This document shows positions 18,951-28,637 of a DNA stretch of 39,721 bases, piece by piece. How positions within the stretch are numbered: position 1 is the first letter of the stretch; every line of letters begins with the position of its first letter. Both the position numbers and the translations under genes were made by a program. The notes under the pieces are model-generated. The model was not told the DNA's origin. It worked only from the letters and a program-made list of their open reading frames with translations, and made no database searches. Source of the DNA: Symbiobacterium thermophilum (GTDB taxonomy: Bacteria; Bacillota; Sulfobacillia; DYFQ01); assembly GCA_020725105.1 (NCBI GenBank), contig DYFQ01000029.1, positions 1-39,721 on the forward strand, read 5' to 3'.

Positions 18951-18960
18951 GGCGGATCCA

Positions 18961-19370
18961 CTCCAAGCAAGCCTGTACTCCGAGTTCTGTCGAGGGTGAC
19001 CATCTATCTGGGACGCCGGTTGCCCGGCGCCTCGAGCGACCAACCCGAGGGGTCGGCGGGCCGCGTCATGCCCCTCCTATTTGGTCTTGCTCCGGGTGGG
19101 GTTTACCTAGCCGACCCGTCGCCGGGGCCGCTGGTGCGCTCTTACCGCACCGTTGCACCCTTACCGCACCCGCGGCCGGCTTCCCGGCCGCGGCCGGCCG
19201 TGGCCGGCGCTTGCCGGTCACGCCGCGAAGCGGCGGTCTGCATTTCTGTGGCACTTTCCTTGGGGTCGCCCCCACTGGGTGTTACCCAGCACCCTGCCCT
19301 GCGGAGCTCGGACGTTCCTCGGACACGGCCTTGCGGCGCTTGTGCCCGCGGTCACCCGGCTTGCTTGGAG
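18961..19370 (-). ncRNA. rnpB: RNase P RNA
   Basis: Catalytic RNA of RNase P, about 410 nt, which matures tRNA 5' ends. Ends are set by the 13-bp P1 helix (18961-18973 with 19358-19370). Reading the minus strand, conserved blocks occur in the right order: GAGGAACGTCCGAGCTCC, GCAGGGCAGGGTGCTGGGTA, AGTGCCACAGAAA then GCAGACCGCC, GGTAAGGGTGCAACGG, GGTAAGAGCGCACC, GTAAACCCCACCCGGAGCAA, GATAGATGGTCACC and GACAGAACTCGG. The overall plan looks like the ancestral bacterial A type rather than the Bacillus B type. Its P4 helix differs from the usual sequence on both strands (see findings). It has its own promoter at 19407-19415 and terminator at 18918-18950, and lies downstream of an RNase HI gene. Confidence 0.95.
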
Positions 19371-21732: not shown

Positions 21733-21738
21733 TGGCGG

Positions 21739-21811
21739 TGGCCCTACCGGGATTCGAACCCGGGTTCCCACCTTGAAAGAGTGGTGTCCTAGTCCCCTAG
21801 ACCATAGGGCC
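21739..21811 (-). tRNA. tRNA-Glu (anticodon UUC)
   Basis: Seventy-three-base cloverleaf on the minus strand. The acceptor stem is GGCCCTA with TAGGGCC and discriminator A. The anticodon loop is CTTTCAA within CCACT/GGTGG, and the T arm is CCGGGTTCGAATCCCGG. CCA is not encoded (ACCG follows). It has its own promoter at 21869-21897 inside the small upstream ORF. Confidence 0.97.
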
Positions 21812-22039: not shown

Positions 22040-22062
22040 GGCCAAGACCCCCAAAAAGCTTG

Positions 22063-22136
22063 TGCGCCCGGCAGGACTCGAACCTGCACCCCAGGGCTTA
22101 TGAGGCCCCTGCTCTCGCCACTTGAGCTACGGGCGC
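22063..22136 (-). tRNA. tRNA with CAU anticodon, probably elongator tRNA-Met
   Basis: Seventy-four-base cloverleaf on the minus strand. The acceptor stem is GCGCCCG with CGGGCGC and discriminator A. The D arm starts AGCTCAAGTGGCGAGAGC, the anticodon loop is CTCATAA (CAU) within GGGGC/GCCCT, and the T arm is TGCAGGTTCGAGTCCTGC. CAU could also be tRNA-Ile with a lysidine; I favour Met but the two are not separable with certainty here. It is not the initiator (no three G-C pairs in the anticodon stem). CCA is not encoded. Confidence 0.93.
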
Positions 22137-22445: not shown

Positions 22446-22450
22446 TATAT

Positions 22451-22465
22451 CATCAACAGCTGATG
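22451..22465 (+). promoter_or_regulatory. ArsR/SmtB-type operator before the metal sensor
   Basis: CATCA-N5-TGATG at 22451-22465, flanked by ATATAT and TTTTT. This AT-rich dyad lies 19 bases before the regulator's ATG in an otherwise very GC-rich region. It resembles operators of ArsR/SmtB repressors and is the likely autoregulatory site for the sensor-ATPase operon. Confidence 0.65.
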
Positions 22466-22484
22466 TTTTTGCGGGGGCTTGCCC

Positions 22485-22844
22485 ATGGCGGTCGGAACCG
22501 ACCAGGCTACCCAACGGCCAAAGGTGACGCGCGCGGCGCTCAAGGCCAAGCTGTTTCGCGGCCTTGGCGACCCGTCGCGGCTGGCCATCCTGGAGACCCT
22601 GAGAGACGGCCCGCGGTGCGTGTCGGACATCACCGGCCTTACGGGGCTCAGTCAGCCCAACGTCTCCAACCACCTGGCCTGCCTGCGCGACTGCGGCCTG
22701 GTCAGGGCCCGGCCCCGGGGTCGCCACGTGTACTATTCCCTGGCCCATCCCGGGGTGGCCGAAATCCTGGCCCGGGCCGATAAACTGATGGAGCGGGTCG
22801 CCGCCGGGGTGGAAGCCTGCCCCAACTACCAAGAGCGGACTTGA
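22485..22844 (+). CDS. ArsR/SmtB-family metal sensor, CmtR-type
   Basis: Winged-helix repressor of 119 residues. The DNA-binding core is clear: FRGLGDPSRLAILETLRDG, SDITGLTGLSQPNVSNHLACLRDCGLV, then the wing RPRGRHVYYSL. Cysteines fall in CLRDC (C-x3-C in the recognition helix) with a further Cys near the C-terminus (EACPNY). That is the arrangement used by mycobacterial CmtR to bind Cd(II)/Pb(II). Another Cys lies in RCVSD. It should leave its operator when such metals bind. ATG 22485 follows GGGGG by seven bases. The metal ATPase gene begins 45 bp downstream, so the two form a sensor-pump operon. Confidence 0.88.
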   Translation: MAVGTDQATQRPKVTRAALKAKLFRGLGDPSRLAILETLRDGPRCVSDITGLTGLSQPNVSNHLACLRDCGLVRARPRGRHVYYSLAHPGVAEILARADKLMERVAAGVEACPNYQERT

Positions 22845-22889
22845 ACCCGGCCGACCACCGGTGCCGGCTCCGGACTGGAGAGAGTGCTG

Positions 22890-25004
22890 ATGGGCCAGCG
22901 ACTGGCAAGACTACAACTGGGCGTGGGCGGGATGGACTGCGCCCAGTGCGCGCTGCACGTGGAGGAAGCGGTCCGCTCGCTTCCCGGCGTCCGCGACGCC
23001 CGGGTGCTGCTGGGCGCCGAGCGGCTCGACGTCGTCCACGACCCGGACCTGGTCGACCTGGGCCAGGTGACCCGGGCCGTGGAGCGGGCCGGCTACCACG
23101 TGAAGGACGGTTCGGCCCGGGCTGCCCACGCGGGCCCCGCCGGCCTGGCGGCGCGGGTCGCCTGGACCTTCGCGGCGCTGGTCGCGGTGGTGTTTCTCGT
23201 GGCCATGGTCGGCGAGGGGCTGGGGCTCCTCGACGCCGCGCTGGAGCACGCGCCGCCGGGCCTGGCCGTTGCCGCCGTCCTGCTGGGCGGCTACCCCATC
23301 TTCAAGAACGTCCTCACCGCGCTTCGCCGCGGCAAGGTGACGGCCCACGCCCTCATGACCCTGGGCGTCGCCGGCGCCCTTGCCATCGGCGAGTACCCGG
23401 CGGCGGCCGTGATCGTTGTCTTCATGCGGGTGGCGGAAGCCCTGGAGAGCTACACCACCCGCCACGCCCGGCGGGCCCTGAGCGCGCTGACCCGCCTCGC
23501 TCCCGACGTGGCCCATCTCGCGCGCGACGGCCGGGAAGAGGACGTGCCCGCGGCCGCCCTCAAGACCGGCGACCGGGTGGCCGTCCGGCCGGGAGAACGC
23601 GTGCCCGCCGACGGCGTGGTCGTCGCCGGCCAGGCCGCCGTTGACCAGTCGCCCATCACCGGCGAGAGCATGCCGGTGGAAAAGCTCCCCGGTGCCGAGG
23701 TCTTCGCCGGGACCATCGTCCACGGCGGCCGCCTGGAGGTCAGGGTCACCCGGACCGGCCCGGAGAGCACCCTTGGCCGCATCATCAAGCTTGTGGAAGA
23801 AGCCGAGGCGCGCAAAGCACCCATCCAGCGGGTCGCCGACCGGTTCACGGCGTGGTACCTGCCGGTGGTGGTCGGCGTCGCCGGCGCCACCTACCTGCTG
23901 GGCCGGAACCCGACCGCCGCCATCGCCGTACTCCTGGTCGCCTGCGCCTGCGCCGTCGCCCTGGCCACCCCGACCGCCGTCATCGCGTCGGTCGGCGCGG
24001 CGGCCCGCCGCGGGATCCTGATCAAGGGTGGGCGGTACCTGGAGGCCCTGGCGCGGGCCGATACGCTGGTCATGGACAAGACCGGCACCCTCACCTTCGG
24101 CCGGCCGGCGGTGACGGACGTGGTGGCCCTGGACGGTCACGGCGCCGTGGACGTCCTCAGGCTGGCGGCGGCCGCCGAGCGCTTCTCGGAACACCCGGTG
24201 GCCGCGGCCGTCCGGACCGCCGCGGCCCGGCAGGGGATTGCCGTGGCGGCGCCCGAGCGTTTTGAGCCCCTGGTCGGCCTGGGCGTCCAGGCCCGCTGGA
24301 ACGGTCACGACGTGCTGGTCGGCAGCCGGAGGCTCCTCGACGTGCACCACGTGCCCCTCCCCAGGGCCGCCGAGGACCGGGCGGCGGGCTGGGAAGCCCA
24401 GGGCAAGACCGCGTTTTACGTGGTGGCGGACGGCCGGCCCGTCGGCATGCTGGCCGTCGCCGATACCCCACGGCCTGAGGTGCCCGAAGCCCTCGGGGCC
24501 CTGCGGCGCCTGGGCATCCGCCGGATCGTCCTGCTCACGGGGGACAACGAACGGTCGGCCAGGGCTCTGGCGGCCGAACTGGGCGCCGGCTTCCGGGCGA
24601 ATCTCTTACCCGAAGACAAGATCGCCGTGGTCCGCAAGCTTCAGGCCCGGGGTCACGTCGTCATCGTGGTCGGCGACGGGGTGAACGACGCGCCCGCCCT
24701 GGCCCAGGCCGACGTGGGGGTGGCCATGGGGGTCGCCGGCACCGACGCGGCCATGGAAGCCGCCGACGTGGTGCTCATGGGCGACGACTGGCGTGCCCTG
24801 GCCGAAGCGGTCCGCATCGGCCGGCGCACCTTCCGGGTGATCCAGCAGAACCTGGCCGTGGGCGTGCTGTACAACGTGGTGGGCATGAGCCTGGCCGCCG
24901 TGGGCCTGCTTCCGCCTGTGGTCGCCGCCGCCAGCCAGTCGCTCCCCGACCTCCTGATCATGCTCAACTCTACCCGCCTGCTGCGCAGCCCCGCCGGGCG
25001 CTGA
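22890..25004 (+). CDS. P1B-type heavy-metal ATPase with CAC membrane motif
   Basis: Membrane metal-transporting ATPase of 704 residues. Residues 13-21 are an N-terminal HMA domain (GGMDCAQCA; Cys17, Cys20). Then follow paired TM helices, the actuator TGES (257-260), the phosphorylated Asp396 in DKTGT, SEHP, TGDN and GDGVNDAP. The metal-site helix reads CAC (352-354) in VACACAVALATPTA, where nearly all P1B pumps have CPC, SPC or TPC. The last helix reads SQSLPDLLIMLNSTRLL, unlike the usual Zn/Cd or Cu patterns. Start ATG 22890, nine bases after GGAG. Co-transcribed with the CmtR-like sensor, so it probably exports Cd, Pb or Zn, but the altered site makes the ion uncertain. Confidence 0.92.
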   Translation: MGQRLARLQLGVGGMDCAQCALHVEEAVRSLPGVRDARVLLGAERLDVVHDPDLVDLGQVTRAVERAGYHVKDGSARAAHAGPAGLAARVAWTFAALVAVVFLVAMVGEGLGLLDAALEHAPPGLAVAAVLLGGYPIFKNVLTALRRGKVTAHALMTLGVAGALAIGEYPAAAVIVVFMRVAEALESYTTRHARRALSALTRLAPDVAHLARDGREEDVPAAALKTGDRVAVRPGERVPADGVVVAGQAAVDQSPITGESMPVEKLPGAEVFAGTIVHGGRLEVRVTRTGPESTLGRIIKLVEEAEARKAPIQRVADRFTAWYLPVVVGVAGATYLLGRNPTAAIAVLLVACACAVALATPTAVIASVGAAARRGILIKGGRYLEALARADTLVMDKTGTLTFGRPAVTDVVALDGHGAVDVLRLAAAAERFSEHPVAAAVRTAAARQGIAVAAPERFEPLVGLGVQARWNGHDVLVGSRRLLDVHHVPLPRAAEDRAAGWEAQGKTAFYVVADGRPVGMLAVADTPRPEVPEALGALRRLGIRRIVLLTGDNERSARALAAELGAGFRANLLPEDKIAVVRKLQARGHVVIVVGDGVNDAPALAQADVGVAMGVAGTDAAMEAADVVLMGDDWRALAEAVRIGRRTFRVIQQNLAVGVLYNVVGMSLAAVGLLPPVVAAASQSLPDLLIMLNSTRLLRSPAGR

Positions 25005-25830: not shown

Positions 25831-26036
25831 AGGCCTCCCCACCCTTCCGTGAAGCCCTGGCAAGCTTCTGCGGCCCACCCGGCGTTCCCTACCGCGGGCG
25901 CTCCCGGCCGGCCGGGGGTACGCGCCGACCACCCGGGAGAACCTCTTGAAAGAGGGACCGCCGTGTAGCAACCTGGGGTTGCGGACCCTGTTTGCCCATC
26001 GAAAAGCCGTCCGGTCGCCGAGGAAGGGACACGACC

Positions 26037-28637
26037 ATGATGGGCCTGGTCATCGTGGCTCACAGCCACCGGCTGGCCGAAGGTGTCAGGGAACTGGCCG
26101 AACAGATGAGCCGGGGCAAGGTCGCCATCGCCACCGCCGGCGGGCTCGACGAGGCAACCATCGGCACCAGCCCCGAGCGCATCGCCCGGGCCATCGAGGC
26201 GGTGTCCGGCCCCGACGGCGTGCTGGTGCTCATGGATCTGGGGAGCGCGCTCCTGAGCGCCGAGATGGCGCTGGAACTGCTTCCCCCCGAACGCGGGGAA
26301 CGGGTTGTCCTCTCGGAGGCGCCGCTGGTGGAAGGGGCCGTGGCGGCGGCGGCCGTGGCCGCCGCGGGGGCAACCCTGGAGGAGGCGGCCGCCGAGGCCA
26401 GGGCGGCGCTGGACCCCAAGCGGGCGCAGCTTGCCACCGTTGAGCCGTCCCTTGCCGCCGTCTCCCCGGCTGAACCCGGCACCCCGCCGGAAGCCGGTCC
26501 CGGGCCGCAGGCGGTTCGGACCGGCCGGACCACCCTGGTCAATCCCCTGGGCCTGCACGCCCGGCCCGCCGCCCGGCTCGTGGAAGCGGCCGCCCGGTTC
26601 AAGGCAGCGGTCCGGGTGCGGAACGCGACGCGGGGCGCCGGGCCCGTCAACGCCAGGAGCATCAACGCCGTGGCGTTGCTGGACGCGCGCCAGGGGGACG
26701 AGCTGGTCGTCGAGGCTGAAGGTCCCGAGGCCGAGCAGGCCGTGACCGCACTCACCGCCCTCGTTGCCTCGGGCTTCGGGGAAGTGGAACCGGCCCGGGC
26801 CGCCGTGGCCCAACCGGCAACTCAACCGGTCGAGGCGCCGGGAGCGGCCGGCGAGCCGCCATACCGGGGAACCACTGTCCTGCGGGGCGTCCGCGCCTCA
26901 CCCGGCATCGCCCTCGGCCCGGCCGTCGCGCTCCGCCCGGCCCGACCAGCCGTGCCCCGCCAGCGCGTGGCCGATGACCCCGACGCGGAACTCCGGCGCC
27001 TGGAGCAGGCCAGGCGGGCCGGGGCCGCCGAACTGGCGGCCCTCGGCGGCAAGCTCGCCGCCACCCTGGGCCGGTACGAGGCGGCCATCTTCGACGCCCA
27101 CCGGGCCTTTCTCGACGACCCGGAGTTGCTGGAGGGCGTGGAGCGGGCCATCCGCCAGGAGGGGCTCAGCGCCGAGGCGGCGTGGGAGCGCCAGCTCACC
27201 AGCACCGCTGAGCGTTACCGGGCCCTGGACAACCCGGTCCTGAAGGGGCGCGCCACGGACCTGGAGGACGTCCGTGACCGGGTGCTGCTGGCCCTCGCGG
27301 CCACGGCCGGCGCCGGCGGGTCGGCGCCCGGGCCCGACGAACCGGCACTCCCGGCAGAAGGGCCGGAACCCGGCCGGTCAGGGGTCCTCGTCGCCGGGGA
27401 CCTCACCCCCTCCCAGGTGGCGCGACTCGACCCGGGCCGGGTGCTGGCGGTGGTCACCGCGGCAGGCAGCGCCACCTCGCACGCCATGGTGCTGGCCCGC
27501 TCCATGGGGCTCCCCGCCGTGGTGGGCGTGGGTCGGGCGGTCCTGGGGGTGCCCGATGGAGCCCCCCTGGGAGTGGACGGCGAGCGCGGGGTGGTCGTCG
27601 TCGAGCCCGACGCCGCCAGCGAGGCCGAACTCCGGCGCCGGCGGGAAACGTGGCTGGCACGGCGGCGCCGGGCCCACCAGACCCGCCACCGGCCGGCGGT
27701 CACCACCGACGGCCGGCGGGTGGAGGTGGCGGCCAACGCCGGGAGCCTGGAGGACGCCAGGGCGGCCAGGGAGGCGGGCGCCGACGGGATCGGCCTCCTG
27801 CGCACCGAGTTTCTGTTTCTGGACCGCGAGCAACCGCCCGACGAGTCAGAGCAGGTCAGCGCGTACCGGGCTATCGCCGAGGCCGTGGCCCCCCACCCTG
27901 TCATCATCCGGACCCTCGACGTGGGCGGGGACAAACCCGTCAGGTACCTGGAGACCGCGGCCGAGACCAACCCGTTCCTGGGCATCCGCGGCCTGCGCGT
28001 CAGCCTCGCTCACCCGGAACTGTTCCGCACCCAGCTCCGGGCCATCCTGCGGGCCGCGTCGGCCGGCCGGGTGCGGCTCATGTTTCCCATGGTGGCCACC
28101 CCGGAAGAACTGGCGGCCGCCCTGGAGCACCTGGCCGCGGCGCGCGTCGCTCTGCGCCGGGCGGGTGACCCGGCGGCGGAGTCCGGCATCGAGGTGGGCA
28201 TCATGGTGGAAGTGCCCTCGGCGGCCCTGCTGGCCGGGCACCTGGCCCGGCAGGCCGAGTTCTTCAGCCTGGGAACCAACGACCTGACCCAGTACGTGAT
28301 GGCGGCGGAACGGGGAAATCCCGGCGTGGCGGCGCTGTCAGACCCCTTGCACCCCGCCGTGCTCCGGCTCGTCGACATGGTGGTCCGGGCGGCTCACGAC
28401 GCTGGACGCTGGGTGGGCGTCTGCGGGGAGATGGCCGGCGATCCGGTGGCCGTTCCGATCCTGGTGGGGCTGGGCATCGACGAGTTGAGCGCCGCGCCCG
28501 TGGCCGTGCCCGGCGCCAAGGCGGTGATCCGGCGGCTGGACACCGCCCGCGCCGGCCAGGTGGCCCGCGCGGCCCTGGAGGCGCCCGACGCCGAGGGCGT
28601 GCGGGCCATGGTCAGACGGGAGTTTCCCGTCCGCTAG
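26037..28637 (+). CDS. dhaM: DhaM-HPr-Enzyme I fusion, PEP-dependent phosphorelay for dihydroxyacetone kinase
   Basis: A single chain of 866 residues holding a whole phosphorelay. Residues 1-125 are the EIIA-Dha domain (LVIVAHSHRLAEG, His9). Then comes an Ala/Pro linker and HPr at about 160-250 (NPLGLHARPAARLVE, His174). A complete Enzyme I follows from about 280 to the end: GSATSHAMVLARSMGLPAVVG with His482, RTEFLFLDRE, RTLDVGGDKPVRYL, GTNDLTQYVMA, and VCGEMAGDP. E. coli DhaM has the same order but only a shortened EI, so this version could take phosphate from PEP to DhaL-ADP unaided. ATG 26037 follows AGGAAGGG. It faces glpC tail to tail; the two stop codons share CTAG at 28634-28637. Confidence 0.93.
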   Translation: MMGLVIVAHSHRLAEGVRELAEQMSRGKVAIATAGGLDEATIGTSPERIARAIEAVSGPDGVLVLMDLGSALLSAEMALELLPPERGERVVLSEAPLVEGAVAAAAVAAAGATLEEAAAEARAALDPKRAQLATVEPSLAAVSPAEPGTPPEAGPGPQAVRTGRTTLVNPLGLHARPAARLVEAAARFKAAVRVRNATRGAGPVNARSINAVALLDARQGDELVVEAEGPEAEQAVTALTALVASGFGEVEPARAAVAQPATQPVEAPGAAGEPPYRGTTVLRGVRASPGIALGPAVALRPARPAVPRQRVADDPDAELRRLEQARRAGAAELAALGGKLAATLGRYEAAIFDAHRAFLDDPELLEGVERAIRQEGLSAEAAWERQLTSTAERYRALDNPVLKGRATDLEDVRDRVLLALAATAGAGGSAPGPDEPALPAEGPEPGRSGVLVAGDLTPSQVARLDPGRVLAVVTAAGSATSHAMVLARSMGLPAVVGVGRAVLGVPDGAPLGVDGERGVVVVEPDAASEAELRRRRETWLARRRRAHQTRHRPAVTTDGRRVEVAANAGSLEDARAAREAGADGIGLLRTEFLFLDREQPPDESEQVSAYRAIAEAVAPHPVIIRTLDVGGDKPVRYLETAAETNPFLGIRGLRVSLAHPELFRTQLRAILRAASAGRVRLMFPMVATPEELAAALEHLAAARVALRRAGDPAAESGIEVGIMVEVPSAALLAGHLARQAEFFSLGTNDLTQYVMAAERGNPGVAALSDPLHPAVLRLVDMVVRAAHDAGRWVGVCGEMAGDPVAVPILVGLGIDELSAAPVAVPGAKAVIRRLDTARAGQVARAALEAPDAEGVRAMVRREFPVR

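Follow-up and report, generated by a model that had tools for sequence, protein, structure and literature searches.

In this work, we analysed a heavy-metal pump gene of Symbiobacterium thermophilum, located in a 39,721-nucleotide stretch of contig DYFQ01000029.1 (hereafter the window), together with its relatives in other bacteria. The pump carries Cys-Ala-Cys (CAC) in place of the CPC motif in M4 and, on the sequences compared, this oddity is a trait of a whole clade and not a quirk of a single pump. We lean towards reading the gene, together with the repressor gene that precedes it, as a two-gene metal-resistance operon in which a putative Cd(II)/Pb(II) exporter is governed by a CmtR-type repressor. 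The CPx proline is treated as a hallmark of heavy-metal pumps, and a clade in which the cysteines are invariant, the central position is free (Ser, Ala, Thr, Pro) and close relatives have CPC amounts to a natural experiment on the role of that proline.

The pump gene and its motifs

The pump gene and the motifs discussed below are located in the window as follows:
22890..25004, + strand: P1B-type ATPase, 704 aa, ATG start (an in-frame GTG at 22884 is possible)
22929..22949, + strand: HMA motif GMDCAQC, residues 14-20, of DCxxC type (from the sequence and HMA comparison)
23943..23951, + strand: M4 metal-site motif Cys352-Ala353-Cys354 (from the sequence and clade alignment)
24870..24875, + strand: M5 Tyr661-Asn662, the YN pair of CopA pumps, at the position of the P1B-2 lysine
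24936..24950, + strand: M6 Gln683-Ser-Leu-Pro686-Asp687 (QSLPD; from the sequence and clade counts)

The frame 22890-25004 is open throughout and its product has a P1B-type core, i.e. a score of 595.5 bits against TIGR01525 (heavy metal translocating P-type ATPase; curated cut-off 346.25), the Pfam domains HMA, E1-E2_ATPase and Hydrolase, and the motifs TGES, DKTGT, SEHPVA and GDGVND, which agrees with the initial annotation of an otherwise intact enzyme. The CPx proline is absent from M4. Positions 23931-23966 encode LLVACACAVALA, within which 23943-23951 read in frame as CAC, at residues 352-354 as first annotated when counted from ATG 22890 (354-356 if GTG 22884 is used), and this CAC aligns with the CPC of AfCopA. 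The last helix of the pump is SQSLPDLLIMLNSTRLL. The G+C content of the window is 70%.

Collection of the clade and conserved positions

Named genomes were scanned for relatives, and the best 80 of at least 585 confirmed stretches were used. Clade membership was set at 735 bits against a profile, A2, derived from seven members without the Pro; the successive scores near this threshold are 790, 738 (L203) and 699. The 87 open frames were reduced to 74 by merging duplicates and to 73 distinct members by dropping the interrupted L203, a pump on a Shinella zoogloeoides plasmid whose two parts lie in different frames and whose annotation spans the second part alone. Given the origin of A2, further CPC relatives may be missed. 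Most members come from one phylum and they are not independent of one another.

Cys352, Cys354, Pro686, Asp687 and Asn693 are each invariant (73/73). The residue between the two cysteines is Ser in 57 members, Ala in 10, Pro in 4 and Thr in 2, and the codons are uniform in kind: every Ser is encoded by TCN, every Ala by GCN, both Thr by ACG and the four Pro by CCN. Since the centre is non-Pro in 69 of the 73 members (a share biased by the Pro-less origin of A2) and Ala in ten, a sequencing slip is ruled out as the source of CAC. Gln683 is kept in 70/73, Tyr661 in 68/73 and the YN pair in 67/73, while position 662 is Asn in 71, Asp in two and Lys in none. Phe661 occurs in all four CPC members (L039, L040, L041 and L257) and in one Ser member, a link that amounts to about one evolutionary event. 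Among 167 other distinct ATPases compared, CPC was found in 147 and GAC in four.

The five closest relatives by score among the 80 stretches used are L038 (Anaerolineaceae), L042 (Chloroflexia), L039, L040 and L041. All five share xxPD in M6, and their M4 motifs are CSC (L038), CAC (L042) and CPC (the other three). In L039 and L040, a long open frame with extra membrane-like and Cys-rich stretches lies ahead of the HMA domain; Pfam named no extra domain there. A plasmid search found members on plasmids of Mycobacteroides abscessus, Diaphorobacter, Streptomyces and Shinella, and the five that were read (L196-L199 and L203) all have CSC. Near one pump (L242:6619-7791), a CRISPR-like array of 16 copies at 73-77 base spacing was observed, and similar repeat frames occur in L231, L232, L238, L239 and L241.

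Distribution and surroundings

The distribution of the clade was surveyed in four phylum searches (three with A2, one with a second profile, A1), for which the rows shown had two fully scored candidates per genome. At E 1e-230 or better, A2 matched 58 of 400 genomes in the phylum of L038 (Chloroflexota), 1 of 396 in the phylum of a Mycobacterium and 0 of 398 in the phylum of Comamonas, where members are nevertheless present on plasmids. Within the phylum to which the window belongs, the A1 score was 1135 bits for the window's genome and no higher than 721 for the 397 others; the best match to the window protein among 40 relatives of its class reached 492 bits, versus 1475 for itself. As high-scoring relatives are scarce in its own phylum and class and found in other phyla, the pump was likely gained by horizontal transfer. 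Three RNA genes lie upstream of the metal operon:
18960-19367, - strand: RNase P RNA (RNA gene search)
21737-21811, - strand: tRNA gene, one of two before the metal operon (tRNA-Glu, tRNA-Met)
22062-22136, - strand: tRNA gene, the other of these two
Acquired DNA often inserts at tRNA genes. Elsewhere in the window, a single gene at 25992-28637 encodes a fusion of PTS domains (EIIA-man, HPr, enzyme I), near genes of glycerol-type FAD, iron-sulphur and FGGY kinase proteins.

Phylogenetic position

After an 80% identity filter, 45 of the 73 members were kept for the trees. A quick tree was built with 94 rows and two careful trees with 63 and 55 rows; 31 of the 94 rows, including two long ones, L155 (a P1B-5) and L202, were dropped for the former, and 14 more for the latter, to which six P1B-5 rows were added (L155 and five of eight new loci, leaving out L277, which has an internal stop, L278 and L279). 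Solved structures (AfCopA, SsZntA and sCoaT) served as references, along with L048 (strain JL40) and L132 (a Mycobacterium angelicum gene), which we take to be AntA and CtpC, in part from a neighbouring gene. L201, a near copy of L048, adjoins a gene annotated antR.

In the quick tree, the clade was whole except for L155, which fell inside it. In the two careful trees, the clade (99/93 with 63 rows, 100/97 with 55) and the Pro-less set within it (100/98 and 100/99) were recovered, with bootstrap values of 99-100 for a clade standing outside the CopA, ZntA, CoaT, P1B-5, AntA and CtpC-like rows; the six P1B-5 rows formed a branch of their own (100/100) in the 55-row tree. The initial annotation had proposed a sub-class without the central Pro and named clustering inside a characterised subgroup as the outcome that would speak against it. 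Within the references used, no such placement was found in either careful tree, and the sub-class stands. The accompanying view of the Pro as the defining feature of P1B pumps was overstated, as CPC and non-CPC members share one clade and a CSC subgroup, P1B-7, had reportedly already been named.

Within this clade, the CPC rows L257, L039 and L041 fall outside the Pro-less branch (L040, 90% identical to L039, was not placed). On this topology, we consider it rather probable that the central Pro was lost once inside the clade, the number of losses being extrapolated beyond the tree rows. The order with the window first, followed by the CAC and CSC branches, was supported at 98/77 in the 63-row tree and had no resolution in the 55-row tree.

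Other unusual M4 motifs were seen among the pumps compared. L070, L081, L091 and L098 are P1B-like pumps with GACG at the CPC position, hence without the Pro and the first Cys; the three that were placed group in a single branch, which stands next to the clade in the 63-row tree and has no resolved position in the 55-row tree. L202, encoded on a Shinella plasmid, is a P-type ATPase whose M4 reads SPAELG and whose M6 reads HLGPD; it lacks the usual cysteines. L059 (Candidatus Kuenenia) is a second CSC pump, with NEIGG in M6, which lies outside the clade and by the ZntA rows with weak support (87/35 in the 63-row tree); given L059, loss of the Pro seems, from sequence, to have occurred on more than one occasion in P1B pumps.

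The repressor gene and its putative operator

The regulatory part of the proposed operon consists of:
22447..22466, + strand: putative operator ATATCA-N8-TGATGT, 18 bases before ATG 22485
22485..22844, + strand: CmtR-type ArsR/SmtB repressor with Cys66, Cys70 and Cys112, starting at ATG 22485 or possibly at the in-frame TTG 22479

The repressor gene ends 45 bases before the pump gene, on the same strand. Its product contains the Pfam HTH_5 domain, and its best PDB match, at E 9.7e-15, is 2jsc, the CmtR of Mycobacterium tuberculosis, in an alignment that includes the NHLxCLRxCGLV stretch. Cys57, Cys61 and Cys102 are the metal ligands of CmtR. The first two align with Cys66 and Cys70, and the C-terminal one is matched by Cys112 through its position in the tail. 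We call the protein CmtR-type and not CmtR because it scores 75.3 bits against the NCBIfam CmtR model NF047906, half of the 150-bit cut-off. According to PMC7863910, these three residues are among six conserved CmtR cysteines, and CmtR of M. bovis is reported to respond also to zinc and peroxide; titles in the reference lists of PMC7863910 and PMC4531530 call CmtR a cadmium-lead sensor.

A profile built from relatives of the window's repressor, which selects this subfamily by overall likeness and in which the Cys played no part in selection, detected a CmtR-type ArsR at E <1e-30 within 1 kb of 41 of the 73 pumps, the window's included. In 37 of these 41 loci the repressor gene adjoins or overlaps the open frame of the pump, and in the other four (L039, L040, L207 and L235) it lies 406-977 bases off; the repressor of L268 is on the other strand and that of L207 is truncated. 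Cys66, Cys70 and Cys112 are kept in 41/41, and the 40 full repressors, whose pairwise identity ranges from 28 to 98%, have only ten invariant columns, three of which are these Cys. No such repressor was found at E <1e-30 in 184 non-clade control loci (best 4e-20), a set that includes duplicates and loci whose flanks are short. The linked CmtR-like sensor of the initial annotation is thus real and conserved. As a precedent, Thermus TtSmtB/TTC0354 was considered and set aside; its repressor has ELCVCD and is of the other type (PMC5658604).

An exact dyad, TATCA-N8-TGATA, lies ahead of 10 of 39 related repressor genes, whereas in 20 shuffled sets (single-base shuffles) no dyad preceded more than two genes. 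The dyad of the window has a one-base difference in an arm, and the ten do not include it. CATCA-N5-TGATG, a previous candidate found at 9 or 10 of 10 matches in 5 of the 39 genes (the window's included; 0.8 expected), was replaced by this dyad. A sigma-70 promoter scan found none.

Metal-site positions and probable cargo

The HMA domain of the clade is of DCxxC type in 60 of the 62 members with a motif (11 of the 73 are without one), and this type was found in 13 of 15 ZntA-type and 1 of 87 CopA-type pumps, as classed by M4 motif. In ZntA, DCxxC in the HMA domain marks divalent ions. In M6, counting from the Asn, Gln683 occupies the place of AfCopA Met711 and SsZntA Asp714, and Asp687 that of AfCopA Ser715 (AfCopA residues as in PMC9433437; SsZntA K693 and D714 as in PMC8880997). 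ZntA-type pumps are described, in PMC10800456, as coordinating Zn, Cd and Pb with two Cys and the M6 Asp.

Three signs argue for a soft divalent ion: a CmtR-type ArsR with three Cys is conserved beside the pump, the HMA domain is DCxxC as in ZntA-type and not CopA-type pumps, and M6 carries an invariant carboxylate (Asp687, 73/73). The Cd/Pb suggestion of the initial annotation is strengthened by all three and still has the standing of a best guess, since these signs agree and the copper, mercury and arsenic contexts of a few members oppose it. Also counted for Cd/Pb, the window's genome encodes five P1B pumps over the family cut-off, of which the other four are all without ZntA-type motifs. 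Against it, 32/73 pumps are without a CmtR-type repressor near by, and M5 has the CopA-type YN and not the P1B-2 lysine. Where inspected, the pumps without this repressor have MerR-family genes (L196, L198 and L199) or a CxC-type ArsR (L222 and L267) as neighbours.

Under the preferred Cd(II)/Pb(II) reading, in which we infer operator use, ion, transport direction and site geometry, the CmtR-type repressor would sit on the palindrome ahead of its own gene and release it once its three cysteines are occupied by Cd(II) or Pb(II). The P1B ATPase would hold the same soft divalent ion between Cys352/Cys354 in M4 and Asp687 in M6, with Gln683 and Tyr661/Asn662 near by, and export it through a standard P-type cycle with phosphorylation at Asp396. 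Loss of the central Pro, with a small residue taking its place, would have happened once inside the clade.

The alternatives differ in cargo. Export of mercury, or zinc, through the same soft-metal site is unlikely, yet it fares best among them: the MerR-family genes beside L196 and L198 (Mycobacteroides and Streptomyces) score best to mercury MerR and second to a zinc regulator, all under the cut-off, and a response of CmtR to zinc is among the results reported in PMC7863910, whereas the commonest neighbour in the clade is CmtR-type. About as improbable, and marginally more so, is a Cu(I)/Ag(I) exporter whose site would be CopA-like in its CxC and YN but have QxxPD where CopA has MxxSS in M6. 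It would account for the YN pair, for AfCopA (7r0g) as the first Foldseek match by E-value, and for the copper genes around the Diaphorobacter (L197) and Shinella (L199) members, the latter also beside a MerR-family gene that scores best to CueR (126 bits, under the 147.4 cut-off); it is opposed by the position outside the CopA branch in both careful trees, the absence of the M6 methionine and serines, the HMA counts (60/62 versus 1/87) and the CmtR-type repressor.

An As(III)/Sb(III) pump like AntA is a poorer candidate still. It draws on a single member, L267 (the same place as L195), which adjoins an arsenite methyltransferase gene (NF008823, 349.6 of 263 bits) and an ArsR with LCTC, but whose HMA motif is atypical (MTCxxC), and the AntA rows form their own branch with CPC and QEAGC. 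MTCxxC is found in both HMA exceptions, L222 and L267, i.e. the two members seen with a CxC-type ArsR, which may reflect a cargo switch inside the clade. A standard P1B-2 pump whose Pro-to-Ala change is cosmetic would fit the DCxxC domain common to ZntA-type pumps and is very improbable in view of the separate branch, the lack of an M5 Lys and M6 DxG, and the non-Pro centre (Ser, Ala or Thr) in 69/73 relatives.

Extending the preferred Cd/Pb reading to the clade as a whole, we tentatively suggest a distinct CxC (M4)/YN (M5)/QxxPD (M6) class for Cd/Pb, possibly DCxxC-fed and run by CmtR-type repressors, in which the M4 Pro would have been lost once with pumping kept and a carboxylate would stand in for the copper-site serine. 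The window pump, early in the Pro-less branch, would then allow, with its CPC relatives, a direct test of proline function.

Structure models

The AlphaFold2 model of the window pump (30 rows) has a pLDDT of 82.7. M4 is modelled as two helices (341-350 and 354-373) that are separated at residues 351-353, and M6 is unbroken (676-695) despite Pro686. In the model of the CPC control L039, M4 breaks at the same place (helices 335-344 and 348-367). A loss of the M4 break without Pro was seen in neither model, a weak check given that both use the same 30 sequences. The missing Pro kink of the initial annotation is therefore not supported, such models being weak on one residue. Foldseek gave AfCopA 7r0g a TM of 0.73, and SsZntA 4umw and sCoaT 7qbz 0.56 each; such differences may owe as much to the state of the pump in its cycle as to relatedness.

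Comparison with known systems

The window pump resembles P1B-1 (CopA) pumps in overall fold and in the YN pair of M5; unlike them, it has neither CPC nor MxxSS, its HMA domain is of another type and it stands on another branch. With P1B-2 pumps (ZntA, CadA) it shares the HMA DCxxC and an M6 carboxylate, and ArsR-type repressors are common neighbours of both. It differs from them in lacking CPC and the M5 Lys (Asn is found at this position), in having QSLPD and not DxG in M6, with the Asp one helix turn further on, and in its branch; the ArsRs next to the P1B-2 pumps compared carry an ELCVCD-type box, unlike the window's repressor. Neither SPC nor HEGxT of P1B-4 (CoaT) was found. The clade shares the spacing of the M6 Gln and Asp with P1B-5, while TPC, QExxD and the P1B-5 branch do not apply to the window pump. 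AntA is an Sb(III) pump; AntA-like rows are 45-47% identical to the window over the aligned core and share the M5 YN, but have CPC, QEAGC in M6 and their own branch, none of which is found for the window pump.

Smith, Smith and Rosenzweig reportedly named, in 2014, a subgroup P1B-7 with CSC in M4. The window has CAC and most of its clade CSC, and the clade may be this subgroup, with which it is compared here by the CSC motif; the present sequences describe the CPC relatives, the CmtR-type repressor and the use of Ala where CSC has Ser. In the part of the literature that our search covered, no publication on CAC or CSC motifs came up. The substrate of P1B-7 is given as unknown or not biochemically examined (PMC7558416, table; PMC4932525), and a third source regards the subgroup as lacking a definitive definition (PMC6884021). 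Should the clade be P1B-7, the conserved repressor and the HMA signature supply a testable cargo for a subgroup whose substrate is listed as unknown.
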